Assembly: GCA_001899315.1 (NCBI GenBank)
Contig: MOYA01000001.1
Span: 1,319,544 to 1,367,727, forward strand
Origin: Candidatus Obscuribacter phosphatis
GTDB lineage: Bacteria > Cyanobacteriota > Vampirovibrionia > Obscuribacterales > Obscuribacteraceae
DNA: 48,184 bases
Direction of reading: 5' to 3'
The notes under the pieces are model-generated. The model was not told the origin of the DNA, ran no database searches, and worked only from the letters and a program-made list of their open reading frames with translations. Positions 14,805 through 19,790 of this stretch are shown here, in pieces; the stretch's first letter is position 1, and each line of letters opens with the position of its first letter. Position numbers and translations under genes: made by a program.

Positions 14805-17800
14805 TTAAGCCAGTGCCTTCAGTGGTTCTTCATCCGGTATGACAACTTCTTTGATGCCGACAGTGCGTGAATAGCCGTCGGCTCTCAGCGATACACCCAC
14901 GGCATGGTCGGCGTTTTCGATCATTGGACGACGCAGGCTGACCACCACAAACTGGGCGCTTTCCGATTGCCGCTTGACCATCTGGGCCAGACGCTCGGCG
15001 TTGGCACCGTCCAACATCATGTCGACTTCGTCAAAGGCATAGAATGGTGCCGGTGCAAAGCGTTGGAAGGCGAACACAAATGAGAGAGCGGTCAGCGACT
15101 TCTCGCCTCCAGACAAAGCTTCGATGCGCTGCATCTTCTTGTCTCTTGGTTGGGCTCTGATAACCAGTCCACCTTCGAATGGGCTTTCCGGATGTTCCAA
15201 TTCCAATCTGCCGGTACCATGAGATAGTTCGGCGAAAATTTGTTGGAAATTGGTATTGATGGCGTTGAAAGCCTCCAAGAAAGTTTCTTTCTTTAGTTGA
15301 CCATAGCCGTCGATGCGCTGAATGATCTCTTCCTTCTCATCGGCAAGTGTATCCAAGTTTTCGGATAGTTCCTGCTGACGCTCGGCAGTCTGATTGTATT
15401 CTTCCAAGGCTTTCATATTGACCGGTTCGAGGGCGCGCATACGGCGCTCCAGTCTTTCTACCTGCTGCTTGAGCTGTTCGACCGTGCCGGCATTTGGTTT
15501 TTCGTATTGCGGATTTTCAGCCAAGATGCGTTCGATTTCTTCTCTGACCAAGACAAGCTGCTGCTCGACATCGTAATGACTGATCTTGCGCTCATTACGC
15601 TGCTCTTTCACTCTAATTAGTTCTTGATCGTGCTTGGTCCGTTCAATTTCGCTCTGAGTTATCTTCTCGTGGATATCTTCCTTAGCCTGGCGCATCGATT
15701 CCAGCTCTTCCGATAGTTCGGAGACTTTGGCTTCCATTTCATTGATAGAGGCGCGCAGGGTGGCGATATTGTTTTCGAAGAGCGGCTTTTGTCCTTCCAG
15801 GTCGTCAAGCTCTACTCCGAGATCGTTGGCTTGCACAGTGAGATTTTCACGATTGGTTATCTCGACACGCTCTTCTGTTTCGATGCGATCCAGATGGCGT
15901 TGAATTTCTTTGTTCTCGGCATCTACTGCGTTGACCGTTTGTCTAAGCTCTTCCGACTGCAAAATGAGATTGTCGAGCTTAGACTTGTGACCTTTGTCAC
16001 GGGCGCTTTCCAGGCTGCCTTCCATTGACTCAATTTTGACGGTAATTTCTTTGATTGAGGCATCGAGGGCGTTCGATTCTGTCTCAAGGGCGTCTATTTC
16101 GTCGCCCTTTTCTCTAAGCTTGGGCTTGATACCTTCCACTTCTTCTTCGGTATCTTTGACCAGCTTGCGTTTGGCTTCCAATTCGGCCAGCTTGTGCGCC
16201 ATATTTTCTTTGGCTTTATTTAGCTTGGCTCTCTCTTCGGCCAGCGAGTTCTCAAGCTCTTTGATGGAATCTTTCAGCCATCTGAGCTGTTCGGCCAGGC
16301 TCTTGGCGGTCTGCTTCAAAACCGACAGGTCGGTCTCGCCGCGACTGCCAAAATGCATTCTGGCTTTGTTATCGTTACCACCCGAGATACTACCCGACTT
16401 GTCGAAAAGCTCTCCTTCCAGGGTGACCATGCGGGCCTGGTTGATTAACTTGCGGGCATTGTCCATGGTGTCAAGCACAATGGTCTGACCGCAAGCATAT
16501 TGAAAAGCTTTAACAAAGCGTGGATTGAAATCGATCAGGTTGTAGGCGAAATCGATTACCCCGGGGCGATTGGGCAAAAGACCCGGGGGTTGAGTTTGAA
16601 TGCGGTTGAGCGGTACGAAAGTGGCTCTTCCTGCTTGATTGGCTTTGAGAAATTCAATGCAACGCTTAGCGATTTCATCATCGTCGACGACTATATGACC
16701 GAGCCTGGGGCCAATAGCAGTTTCAAGAGCAGTTGTGAATCTTTCGTCCACCCGACCCAATTGACCGATAGTACCGTGCACGCCGGCAATATTGGCCGCA
16801 AGTACGGCTTCCACAGCCTTACCATAGCCGCTCTCACCCTGTACTTCGCGGGTGGTTTCCAGTTCTATCAGGCGGCGATTAACCGAATCTTGCGCTTGGC
16901 GTTTGGTTTCGATTTCTTCTCTGGTTGACTCAAGCTCTGCTTCGTATTGCATGATGCTGCGTTCAATACCAGCCACCAAGGCGCGGTGATCTTGATATTC
17001 ACTTTCCAGTTTGCCGAGCAGCCCTTTCACTTGCGATACCCGGCCAATCTGTTCAGTGGCACGGTTACGCAGATTTTCCAGTTCGCGCTCTAAACTTTCT
17101 CGCTTGGTTTTCAGAGCAGTTTTGCGCACTTCAAACTGATGTCTTTCGTCTCTCAGCTTTTGCAAATCGGTATGCAAACCGGCAATCTTGTCTGAAGATT
17201 TGTCTTTTTCGGCGCGCAAGCCGTCGATTTCAGCCAAAATAGCATTGAGTGCCGCCTGCTTCTCGCCAAGCACTTCGCGCACTGCCTGTTGGTCGGCCGT
17301 GTGTTGTTTCTTTTGCTTGCCAAGGTCGCTCAAATGTCTATCAATAGTCTTGATTTGCGAGCCTATCTGTTTGGCTTGCTTGGTTTTCTCACCAATGACG
17401 CCTTCCAAGTTGGAGAGTTTGTTCTCTTCCCTGGTCAGTTCGCCTCGCTTGTTTTCCAACTCCTGTCTAATCAGAAGCTGCTCATTACCGCCTTTTTCTC
17501 TAATTTCTTGTTCGATGCGACCAAGCTCGGCTCTCAGGCTAACCAAGGCAACTTCGGTCTTATCCAGCTTTTCATTGAGGCTCTCTTCTTTGGCGTTGAG
17601 CTTTTCAATTTCTTTCAGCTCGGCTGCTGCTTTCTCTTCTAATTCAGCCGCTCTGACAAAAACCAAATCTCTTTCGACTGTTTCTTTCTGAGTTTTCAGA
17701 TCAAGATATTTCAAAGCTTGATCTCGATCAGTCTTCAAAACCTCAAGCCTGGCCAAGATTTCAGTGAGTACTATCTTTTGTAGCTCAATTTTCTCGCCCA

Positions 17801-18329
17801 CAGCCGTGAGTTCGTTCTGGGCTTGATCTATACGCCGATCGAATTCTGCCACACCGGCAAGCTCGTCGATAATCTTGCGCCTTTCGGTGGCGCTCATGGT
17901 GACAATGCCGGTGACGTCGCCCTGCATGATCACGTTATAGCCTGTGGGGCTGACATTATATTTGATCAGCTCTTCATGTACTTCTGAAAGAGTAGAGACC
18001 TTACCGTTCAGTATATAGGTCGAGGTATAGCCGTTGTCTTTCACTTTGATGCGGCGAGTTACTTCCAACTCGTCGCCTTCGTCGTTGGTGAACTTTACTC
18101 GCACCCTTGCTTCATTTCGCCCACTCAAGTTATTGAGCAAGTCGGGTAATCTCTCAGCTCTCATGGTGCGGGTCGAAGACAAACCAAGGGCAAAGAGCAA
18201 GCTGTCGATGATATTCGACTTGCCAGAACCGTTTGGTCCCGATATGGTGGTGAATCCGTCTAAGAGCGGGACCAGTGTTTGCTTGCCGAATGACTTGAAA
18301 TTATCAAGTTCGATTTCTTTGATTCGCAA
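14805..18329 (-). CDS. smc: Chromosome segregation ATPase SMC
   Basis: 1174 residues, normal size. Walker A GPNGSGKS at 31-38; long coiled coil with many Glu/Lys/Leu heptads; hinge near 500-660 (VHGTIGQLGRVDERF to GSISGGNDNKARMHFGS); second coiled coil; then the ABC signature LSGGEKSLTALSFVFA and Walker B FYAFDEVDMMLD near the C terminus. SMC forms the ATP-driven DNA-loop-extruding ring that individualises sister chromosomes. The start fits the family consensus MRIKEIELDNFKSFG. It is the first gene of the operon smc-scpA-scpB-ispD. Confidence 0.98.
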   Translation of the reverse strand: MRIKEIELDNFKSFGKQTLVPLLDGFTTISGPNGSGKSNIIDSLLFALGLSSTRTMRAERLPDLLNNLSGRNEARVRVKFTNDEGDELEVTRRIKVKDNGYTSTYILNGKVSTLSEVHEELIKYNVSPTGYNVIMQGDVTGIVTMSATERRKIIDELAGVAEFDRRIDQAQNELTAVGEKIELQKIVLTEILARLEVLKTDRDQALKYLDLKTQKETVERDLVFVRAAELEEKAAAELKEIEKLNAKEESLNEKLDKTEVALVSLRAELGRIEQEIREKGGNEQLLIRQELENKRGELTREENKLSNLEGVIGEKTKQAKQIGSQIKTIDRHLSDLGKQKKQHTADQQAVREVLGEKQAALNAILAEIDGLRAEKDKSSDKIAGLHTDLQKLRDERHQFEVRKTALKTKRESLERELENLRNRATEQIGRVSQVKGLLGKLESEYQDHRALVAGIERSIMQYEAELESTREEIETKRQAQDSVNRRLIELETTREVQGESGYGKAVEAVLAANIAGVHGTIGQLGRVDERFTTALETAIGPRLGHIVVDDDEIAKRCIEFLKANQAGRATFVPLNRIQTQPPGLLPNRPGVIDFAYNLIDFNPRFVKAFQYACGQTIVLDTMDNARKLINQARMVTLEGELFDKSGSISGGNDNKARMHFGSRGETDLSVLKQTAKSLAEQLRWLKDSIKELENSLAEERAKLNKAKENMAHKLAELEAKRKLVKDTEEEVEGIKPKLREKGDEIDALETESNALDASIKEITVKIESMEGSLESARDKGHKSKLDNLILQSEELRQTVNAVDAENKEIQRHLDRIETEERVEITNRENLTVQANDLGVELDDLEGQKPLFENNIATLRASINEMEAKVSELSEELESMRQAKEDIHEKITQSEIERTKHDQELIRVKEQRNERKISHYDVEQQLVLVREEIERILAENPQYEKPNAGTVEQLKQQVERLERRMRALEPVNMKALEEYNQTAERQQELSENLDTLADEKEEIIQRIDGYGQLKKETFLEAFNAINTNFQQIFAELSHGTGRLELEHPESPFEGGLVIRAQPRDKKMQRIEALSGGEKSLTALSFVFAFQRFAPAPFYAFDEVDMMLDGANAERLAQMVKRQSESAQFVVVSLRRPMIENADHAVGVSLRADGYSRTVGIKEVVIPDEEPLKALA

Positions 18330-18594
18330 GAGTGCTTCCCCGAAGAGCTGAAATGGAGATCGGACAGAGGACCTTATACAGCTAATTGTCAGTGTACAGC
18401 CGAATTAGACTACACACTGCATTTGGTGTCAAGTATAGGGTTCCATTCTAGCTGGAAAGCCGCAGTCTGTCACCTTCTGTCGATTTGATATACATTAGTG
18501 TATGTATTTATCGCTTTTAGCAGTCTTGCTTAGGCTGGCTTCTGATCGCACTAGGCGATATACTTTACTGGTTCTACTAATCATAAAAAGGATA

Positions 18595-18605
18595 GCGATC
18601 GCTTG
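18595..18605 (+). promoter_or_regulatory. RBS/start region with a GCGATCGC octamer
   Basis: AAGGA (18588-18592) stands ten bases before the TTG start of the repeat protein. Between them lies GCGATCGC (18595-18602), identical to the cyanobacterial HIP1 palindrome. I noticed only this copy, so it is probably chance. Confidence 0.3.
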
Positions 18606-19790
18606 TCACAGTTTACATCTAGTCAGCTAGGGGACCTGCTTAGCGCTTCAGGTCTGGTCAAACGAGAAAATATTGACGGCGCTCTATCTATGTCTGGTAC
18701 CAGAAGACAACCTCTTGGAAAGATCTTAATTGAATCTGGGTTGATGACCGAAACCGAGTTGCTCGGTACCTTGCAAGCCCAGAACTTGATTAGAGAGAAG
18801 CTTTTAGAGAGCGATGCCGCCCTGCAGTTGCTTTCTAGAGTACGCCAGTCGGGCAAGAGCTTTGTCGACTGCCTGCTGGAAAGCTCTTATAGAGTTGAAG
18901 CTCTAGATTTTGGTATTGCTCTTGGGCGTCTGCTTATTGATGCCGGGGCAATTAGTGAAGAGGCTCTGCGCGAAGCTCTGGACACCAGCATAGTTTCTGG
19001 GCTGCCTCTCGCCCGGGTCTTGATTTTGCACCGAGATCTAAGCGAACAGACTGCTTATGCCGGTCTCACAGCCATGCTCTTGGTCAAAGAAGGCCATATA
19101 GCCCGAGGCGAAGCGGTCGGTGCTCTCAAACTTTCCCATATGCATGGTGAAAATATAGAAGAGATTCTCGAATTCGGCGGTTTCAAGAAGTTCAGAGACG
19201 GCAATATAGTGCGGTTAGGCGAACTTTTGGTCCTGTCCGAATTAATTAGCGAAATTGATTTGCTCACCTGTGTGGAGCGCAGTCTTGCTTTGGCTATGCC
19301 TCTGGGGCAGGTGCTTGTGGATGAAGGCATCATGGCCGAAGAGCTGGTGCAATCGGCATTGCGTGCTCAGAAATATATCGAGCAGGGCACGGTGGATGCT
19401 TTGCGCGCTGCTCAGATGCTGAAGTATTGTGCTCGCACCGGGCAACTGCTTGAATTTAGTCTGGAAGAGTTGGCGTCTATCAAGCCTCGCCAGTTTTTTG
19501 AAGAAAGACCCGCTGATCAGGTGGAGCTTTTGGAGTTACTTGGATTGATCAGCAATGCAGATCTAGATCAGATCAAATTAGTGAAACAAGAAGCCTTGGA
19601 CTTACAGAAAGTAGAGGACTTTATTATTGAAAAGGGCATTCTCAGCCCAGAAGCTCTAGCCGCATTGCGCCTGGGTCTTGATATGGTGCACAGCGAGAAG
19701 ATTAGCCTGGAGCAACTAGTCTTTGCTATGCATGTCTGGCTCTGGGAAAGAGGCGATTTTGCCAAGCTCGTGAAAAACTTAGGCTGGTAA
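18603..19790 (+). CDS. Tandem MshEN-like repeat protein, candidate c-di-GMP receptor
   Basis: 395 residues of internal repeats and nothing else. Three units have motif pairs with the same register: L9-G10 and L38-G39, L107-G108 and L136-A137, L205-G206 and L234-G235. Partners are 29 residues apart and units exactly 98 apart; a fourth, degenerate unit covers about 306-365. Each motif follows the MshEN pattern LGxxLLxxGLIxxxxLxxAL, the c-di-GMP-binding half-site of type II secretion and pilus ATPases, where two 24-residue motifs are separated by five residues, giving the same 29. Here no ATPase domain follows. A 45-residue helical segment separates the units. The TTG start is supported by AAGGA. 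Binding of c-di-GMP is inferred; several first-position arginines are replaced. Confidence 0.7.
   Translation: MSQFTSSQLGDLLSASGLVKRENIDGALSMSGTRRQPLGKILIESGLMTETELLGTLQAQNLIREKLLESDAALQLLSRVRQSGKSFVDCLLESSYRVEALDFGIALGRLLIDAGAISEEALREALDTSIVSGLPLARVLILHRDLSEQTAYAGLTAMLLVKEGHIARGEAVGALKLSHMHGENIEEILEFGGFKKFRDGNIVRLGELLVLSELISEIDLLTCVERSLALAMPLGQVLVDEGIMAEELVQSALRAQKYIEQGTVDALRAAQMLKYCARTGQLLEFSLEELASIKPRQFFEERPADQVELLELLGLISNADLDQIKLVKQEALDLQKVEDFIIEKGILSPEALAALRLGLDMVHSEKISLEQLVFAMHVWLWERGDFAKLVKNLGW

Follow-up and report, generated by a model that had tools for sequence, protein, structure and literature searches.

In c-di-GMP biology, synthesising and degrading enzymes have long outnumbered the known receptors. 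Among the described domains close to the protein presented here is the N-terminal domain of VcMshE (MshEN, 5htl), in which two 24-residue motifs placed 29 residues apart make up a four-helix bundle. A single copy of this domain is present in VcMshE, where it is joined to MshEN_C and an ATPase, and its pocket has glycines, leucines, and the motif-II Gln, with both Gln and both Arg residues present. Binding of c-di-GMP has been demonstrated for several MshEN constructs (Wang et al. 2016, PMC5013675). The same source gives many architectures with other partners, in which MshEN_N is found outside ATPases and also paired, as in (MshEN_N)2, so the premise of our first-pass annotation, that MshEN is otherwise tied to secretion or pilus ATPases, was wrong. 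Consecutive MshEN-type domains, only some of which bind, are reported for Thermus thermophilus PilF (GSPII-A, -B, and -C); they are about 140-170 residues long, include MshEN_C, and are located on an ATPase (PMC11731258).

The gene addressed in this work occupies positions 18603-19790 on the plus strand of the window, the term used here for the whole 48,184-nucleotide stretch of DNA that was analysed. Its host, Candidatus Obscuribacter phosphatis, is an uncultured, non-photosynthetic relative of cyanobacteria, and the nearest named record is a 96% identical copy in a metagenome-assembled Candidatus Obscuribacterales genome. The ORF encodes 395 amino acids from a TTG start codon, and this start is supported by close orthologues which begin at the matching position. 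Based on the translation and on Pfam and NF053729 searches, the whole product is a tandem MshEN_N array devoid of a catalytic domain.

Three units open at L9, L107, and L205, with a period of exactly 98 residues, and their motif partners L38, L136, and L234 follow at a distance of 29 residues each. This regularity, proposed already in the first-pass annotation, was confirmed in the translation. Starting from residues 8, 106, and 204, the units can be aligned without gaps across 53 residues, and each comprises two 24-residue motifs coupled by a 5-residue joint. The annotation was right about these three units but missed a fourth, divergent one, which follows unit 3 at about residues 304-395 (19512-19787, plus strand, as are all segments of the array). 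With the local profile, just three units of the window protein exceed the threshold; unit 4 was recognised from the fourth units of paralogues and from conservation in 17 aligned rows. These rows consist of the window protein and 16 smc-linked syntenic relatives (36-97% identity), with row L080 and the L004-type paralogues left out of all conservation counts. Unit 4 is a divergent cap without pocket residues, and it terminates in a conserved tail in which Gln371, Phe374, His377, Trp379, Trp381, Gly384, and Gly394 are invariant in 17/17 rows. Units are separated by spacers of residues 61-105 (18783-18917), 159-203 (19077-19211), and 257-303 (19371-19511). Spacer 1 is predicted to be a two-helix hairpin in the model of unit 1, spacer 2 is delimited by the unit spacing and contains helices in a low-confidence full-length model, and spacer 3 is placed by the unit spacing.

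The NCBIfam profile NF053729 (c-di-GMP_motif, MshE-related) matches the protein in four stretches, the best one in unit 1, with 85.5 bits and E 1.5e-24. Because this score is far over the cut-off of 38 bits, the match of repeat and motif, as judged from sequence, is beyond chance. In a phmmer search against the PDB (E up to 10), all 11 distinct sequences found are PilF, MshE, or PilB chains, with the best E of 5.9e-5. The Pfam search revealed no ATPase or other catalytic domain in the window protein, PilZ (PF07238) is not among the families reported for it, and both PF05157 (T2SSE_N, named MshEN in Pfam) and PF00437 (T2SSE ATPase) are absent at E up to 10. The same library detects PF05157 and PF00437 in two ATPases of the same genome, L049 and L033. 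In L049, the motif unit extends from 63 to 115 and PF05157 from 116 to 202; judging by this layout, PF05157 models MshEN_C, located after the motif, and the window protein is without MshEN_C. The absence of PF05157 does not speak against the assignment, because this profile covers the C-terminal subdomain missing here. The first-pass annotation would have been contradicted by the lack of any MshEN or T2SSE_N profile match; a match was obtained through NF053729, with PF05157 itself unmatched. In addition, DUF4388 (PF14332) scored 32.4 bits against a gathering score of 25, its best stretch covering only positions 23-76 of 122 and straddling spacer and motif. We read this and FumaraseC_C matches as probable cross-matches, and NF053729 fits far better than DUF4388.

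For structure prediction, unit 1 was modelled with an alignment consisting of the protein's own other units and the units of the 96% identical relative. The model (pLDDT 86.3, pTM 0.77) has six helices, of which helices 1-4 correspond to the MshEN_N bundle and helices 5-6 to the spacer. Its top PDB match is the c-di-GMP-bound MshE structure 5htl, with 1.3 A over 54 columns, 41% identity, and probability 1.00 in Foldseek, and Z 8.3 in VIA-align; Foldseek superposes it on c-di-GMP-bound PilF GSPII-B at 1.0 A over 52 columns. Foldseek E-values for this model are above 0.5. Helical bundles reach middling Z by chance, and E 0.7 for 5htl together with Z 8.3 is modest for a small helical bundle, so it is the sequence match that carries weight in the domain assignment. 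Profile match, solved relatives, and predicted fold are all consistent with the MshEN-like identity first proposed, specifically for the units as MshEN_N. The single-sequence AlphaFold2 fold of the full-length protein (mean pLDDT 45.5, pTM 0.28) was set aside, and its helix pattern alone is mentioned here.

The unit-1 model also resembles the C-terminal domains of class II fumarases (VIA Z 4.4-5.9, rmsd about 1.8 A). A weak resemblance exists in sequence too, as PF10415 (fumarase C-terminal) matches in three arrays, each time below cut-off. Either shared ancestry or a common helix arrangement may explain this likeness.

To evaluate the ligand pockets, 14 unit positions chosen from published contacts (PMC5013675) were scored. 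Unit 1 (residues 8-60, 18624-18782) keeps 12/14 of them, with Arg1 replaced by Gln and Gln24 by Ser. Unit 3 (residues 204-256, 19212-19370) also keeps 12/14, with Glu at the structural Gly of position 10 and Ser at position 24. The set comprised of Gly3, Gly32, six hydrophobic residues, and Gln53 is complete in both. It is incomplete in unit 2 (residues 106-158, 18918-19076; 9/14), in which motif I is kept and motif II is degraded by changes of Gly32 to Ala, Gly39 to Arg, Leu46 to Ala, and Gln53 to Met. Loss of all ligand contacts in every unit, which would have argued against the original proposal, is thus not what the units display. That proposal, a multi-site receptor, survives in so far as the pockets of units 1 and 3 look competent for binding, but this concerns just two units, and the motif-I Gln is gone from every unit of the protein.

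Conservation follows the same division. Units 1 and 3 have Gly3, Gly32, Leu50, and Gln53 in 17/17 rows, while in unit 2 Gly32 is kept in 1/17 rows and Gln53 in 12/17. The mean entropy of nine contact positions is 0.27, 0.51, 0.23, and 1.92 bits in units 1, 2, 3, and 4, and random sets of nine positions are as conserved with p of 0.00015, 0.05, 0.007, and 0.85, respectively. When random sets are limited to hydrophobic and Gly positions, the values become 0.004, 0.06, 0.04, and 0.95. This pattern would result from two sites that have been retained, a third that has decayed, and a cap, although it is not proof of binding; from sequence, two c-di-GMP sites would be expected in the window protein, not four.

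The same counts bear on the possibility that the array is a ligand-free scaffold, in which MshEN_N units form an alpha-solenoid that makes protein contacts, its pockets being relics retained for the sake of folding. Such a role would agree with the loss of pocket residues in units 2 and 4, with the family-wide loss of Gln24, and with the fusion of some paralogues to TPR repeats. It would also agree with the broad conservation of the L009 paralogue, whose pockets are poor in units 1 and 2 (6/14 and 8/14) and good in unit 3. Matches to this paralogue (orthologues L118-L147) occur in 41/53 Obscuribacterales genomes at E up to 1e-60, and some arrays may accordingly need no ligand in their units 1 and 2. 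However, contact positions of the window protein are more conserved than its other hydrophobic and Gly positions in units 1 and 3, and not in unit 4. Furthermore, Gln53, a residue with no evident role in folding, is invariant in units 1 and 3 and varies in unit 2. We therefore regard a ligand-free scaffold as unlikely.

The arrays depart from the published motif at position 24. Gln24 together with an Arg heading both motifs is not found in the window protein: Ser24 is present in units 1, 2, and 3, and the head residues of the two motifs are Q/P, A/P, and R/P. Across the family, Gln24 is replaced by Ser, Ala, or Gly, and Gln is present in just 6/70 units of the genome. In four other genomes of the phylum, it occupies this position in 19/21 listed units (domains above 25 bits, one locus counted twice). 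Units 1 and 2 of the arrays carry Arg or Lys at position 57, one helix turn beyond Gln53. Among otherwise intact pockets it is found in 13/16 units 1 and 11/11 units 2, as opposed to 1/10 units 3 and 3/17 units elsewhere. In the window protein this residue is Arg64, in spacer 1, and it is invariant in orthologues (17/17 syntenic rows).

Published mutants suggest that a site can function without residues of the Gln24 or head-Arg type. The PilF change Q190E, which matches the change of Gln24, is reported to lower affinity 158-fold, to 950 nM, with binding remaining, and a double Gln change to abolish it (PMC11731258). Single changes of Arg9, Asp12, or Gln32 in MshE reportedly cost no more than about fivefold. 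Because such changes weaken binding and need not abolish it, the departure at position 24 and at the motif heads lowers the claim of a canonical site and not that of domain membership. Arg/Lys57 could be a replacement phosphate contact, with a helix-capping role equally plausible.

Loss of Gln24 and gain of Arg/Lys57 could also mean that the phosphate contact has changed to suit another cyclic dinucleotide or a linear guanine nucleotide, and the contrast with the four other genomes and the uneven distribution of Arg/Lys57 among units are what such a change would produce. We consider a different ligand quite improbable, given that the guanine-reading glycines and stacking leucines are retained, as suits c-di-GMP, and that MshEN is reported to bind cGAMP weakly and c-di-AMP not at all (Wang et al., PMC5013675). 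In addition, Arg57 may merely cap the turn into the spacer helix.

The array gene stands alone in its neighbourhood. It is divergent from smc (14805-18329, minus strand; context, and not part of the mechanism proposed below) and the smc-scpA-scpB-ispD series, and convergent with a gene without a Pfam match, after which a TPR gene and a queuine tRNA-ribosyltransferase gene follow. An orthologue with 36-97% identity was found in 16 other genomes of the order, distributed over seven genera, and it is divergent from smc in all 16. The search of the order at E up to 1e-60 disclosed 27 places in total: the gene itself, the 16 smc-linked relatives, and ten loci of L004-type paralogues. Since smc is retained in 16/16 relatives and the TPR gene beyond the array in 15/16, the whole block is syntenic. 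For this reason, a link to chromosome segregation based on smc is kept only as a lead, although smc and the array (together 14805-19790) may share a control region. Rfam at gathering scores gives one tRNA alone across the window, and at those scores no c-di-GMP riboswitch precedes the gene. No relative was found in the viral contigs scanned with the alignment of the four-unit array (A1). That the protein serves the pilus or secretion ATPases of its own genome as an accessory subunit is highly improbable: MshEN is familiar from such systems and two MshEN-T2SSE ATPases (L033 and L049) are encoded in the genome, but the gene adjoins smc-scpA-scpB-ispD, none of the nine neighbouring ORFs scanned is a pilus gene, and the window protein has neither MshEN_C nor an ATPase.

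Similar arrays are abundant in the genome, where NF053729 gives 86 matches (E up to 1) and 29 ORFs containing such matches were read. Among 44 unit-to-unit spacings in these paralogues, 22 are exactly 98 residues and 39 lie within 96-104. Some arrays are fused to other repeats, as in L007 and L017, which carry TPR repeats. A serine/threonine kinase (L019, G000 C4:95502-97403; PF00069, E 1.4e-45) bears degenerate MshEN_N units at its C-terminus, and is a candidate for a nucleotide-tuned or scaffolded kinase.

A profile of the four-unit array (A1, E up to 1e-20) has matches in 50/53 Obscuribacterales genomes. They total at least 798, with a median of at least 17 and a maximum of at least 32 per genome, and at least 34 genomes have ten or more; these are lower bounds, as scoring was limited to 32-36 candidates per genome. 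Among 291 sampled genomes of the phylum, with at most six candidates per genome scored at a strict threshold and no other Obscuribacterales genome among those listed, the genome studied here is the sole match (0/290 others). Tandem MshEN_N proteins (L106-L117) are present in the other phylum genomes G053, G056, G065, and G078, with periods of mostly 57-59 or 63-69 residues. Tandem arrangement thus appears wider than the order, and the four-unit form with the 98-residue period appears to be a product of Obscuribacterales.

Genes for c-di-GMP signalling, which the first-pass annotation suggested looking for, are indeed present elsewhere in the genome, where profile searches gave 37 GGDEF and 2 EAL matches. 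The signature GG[DE]EF is found in 9 of the 20 best GGDEF matches. PilZ (PF07238) was detected neither in this genome nor in any of three genomes of the genus. An absence of PilZ throughout the order is ruled out, as 30/53 Obscuribacterales genomes have it, in one or two copies each. A GGDEF gene is located within 3 kb of 4/28 MshEN ORFs, whereas shifted positions predict 0.79 (p 0.010); this comparison used 35/37 GGDEF matches and all MshEN ORFs except L041 (28/29), the ends of some genes were approximated, and a length was assumed for contig C5. Over six settings p ranged from 0.010 to 0.084, and proximity is only suggestive.

The L004 paralogue is followed downstream by a GGDEF-domain gene at 10/10 loci of its type; the neighbour in the genome studied is degenerate (DTDTF), which tells against a cyclase role. 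The GGDEF neighbour of L015 is also without the signature (QVNEF). The L009 paralogue is located downstream of a REC-REC-GGEEF gene at 5/11 loci examined, its own included, in several genera. A possible c-di-GMP cluster was observed at G000 C1:2244000-2260000, where three MshEN-related ORFs (L021, L024, and L010) and an intact GGEEF gene (C1:2252928) lie in about 16 kb; two of these three ORFs contain long Pro-rich stretches.

Combining these observations, we consider it fairly probable that the window protein is a bivalent c-di-GMP-responsive adaptor with sites in units 1 and 3. An adaptor role is the most likely because no catalytic domain is present, and binding is expected in these two units because they keep the pockets, the two glycines, and the motif-II Gln. 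The protein would be all-helical and presumably cytosolic, each of its four units of about 98 residues comprising an MshEN_N four-helix bundle and a two-helix spacer that connects it with the following one. In units 1 and 3, one c-di-GMP each would be bound by the hydrophobic pocket, the motif-II Gln, and the two glycines, whose backbone NH groups would be presented to guanine. Unit 2 and the spacers would provide linkage and distance, and unit 4 would act as a cap. Filling of one or both sites could alter the packing of units along the rod or expose the C-terminal tail, and control a partner protein in this way; unit 4 with its conserved tail is the likely partner-facing end. The protein would belong to a large order-specific set of arrays, the effectors through which the numerous GGDEF proteins of these genomes would act.

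More tentatively, the arrays may represent a modular class of c-di-GMP effectors specific to Obscuribacterales, built as four units with a 98-residue period, with as many as 32 copies or more in a genome. Its phosphate contact would be rewired (Gln24 lost, Arg/Lys57 gained in units 1 and 2), and binding units (1, 3, and sometimes 2) would be combined with a non-binding cap (4). If so, each array could read c-di-GMP at its own threshold through differing site occupancy, which would be one way to resolve the "too many officers, too few soldiers" problem where PilZ proteins are few or none. It looks as though one order has expanded a single receptor module into dozens of array proteins that stand alone, and PilZ was detected in 0/3 genomes of the genus studied here. 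Arrays that bind would make up a ready set of testable receptors in which intact and broken pockets occur naturally side by side in the same protein, and their variant motif would bear on which contacts MshEN truly requires.

As far as literature searches go, what is new is a four-unit form that stands alone, has expanded across the order, and carries an altered motif, and these searches found no paper on stand-alone MshEN arrays in Obscuribacterales. Already known are the domain itself and its many architectures (PMC5013675), as well as consecutive domains with partial binding in PilF (PMC11731258). With VcMshE the window array shares the motif pair, the bundle, and the pocket glycines, leucines, and motif-II Gln; it differs in having four units, no MshEN_C, and no ATPase, in the loss of Gln24, and in the change of Arg30 to Pro. 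Pro is reported to head motif II in PilF GSPII-C too (PMC11731258), and the array resembles PilF in its consecutive domains and differs in their length, in MshEN_C, and in the ATPase. The sections of Wang et al. 2016 (PMC5013675) consulted here describe neither a 98-residue unit with a spacer nor a four-unit array. Finally, the tandem arrays of G053, G056, G065, and G078 are alike in carrying several NF053729 units in one frame, and are set apart by their mostly shorter periods and by the retention of Gln24 in 19/21 units.
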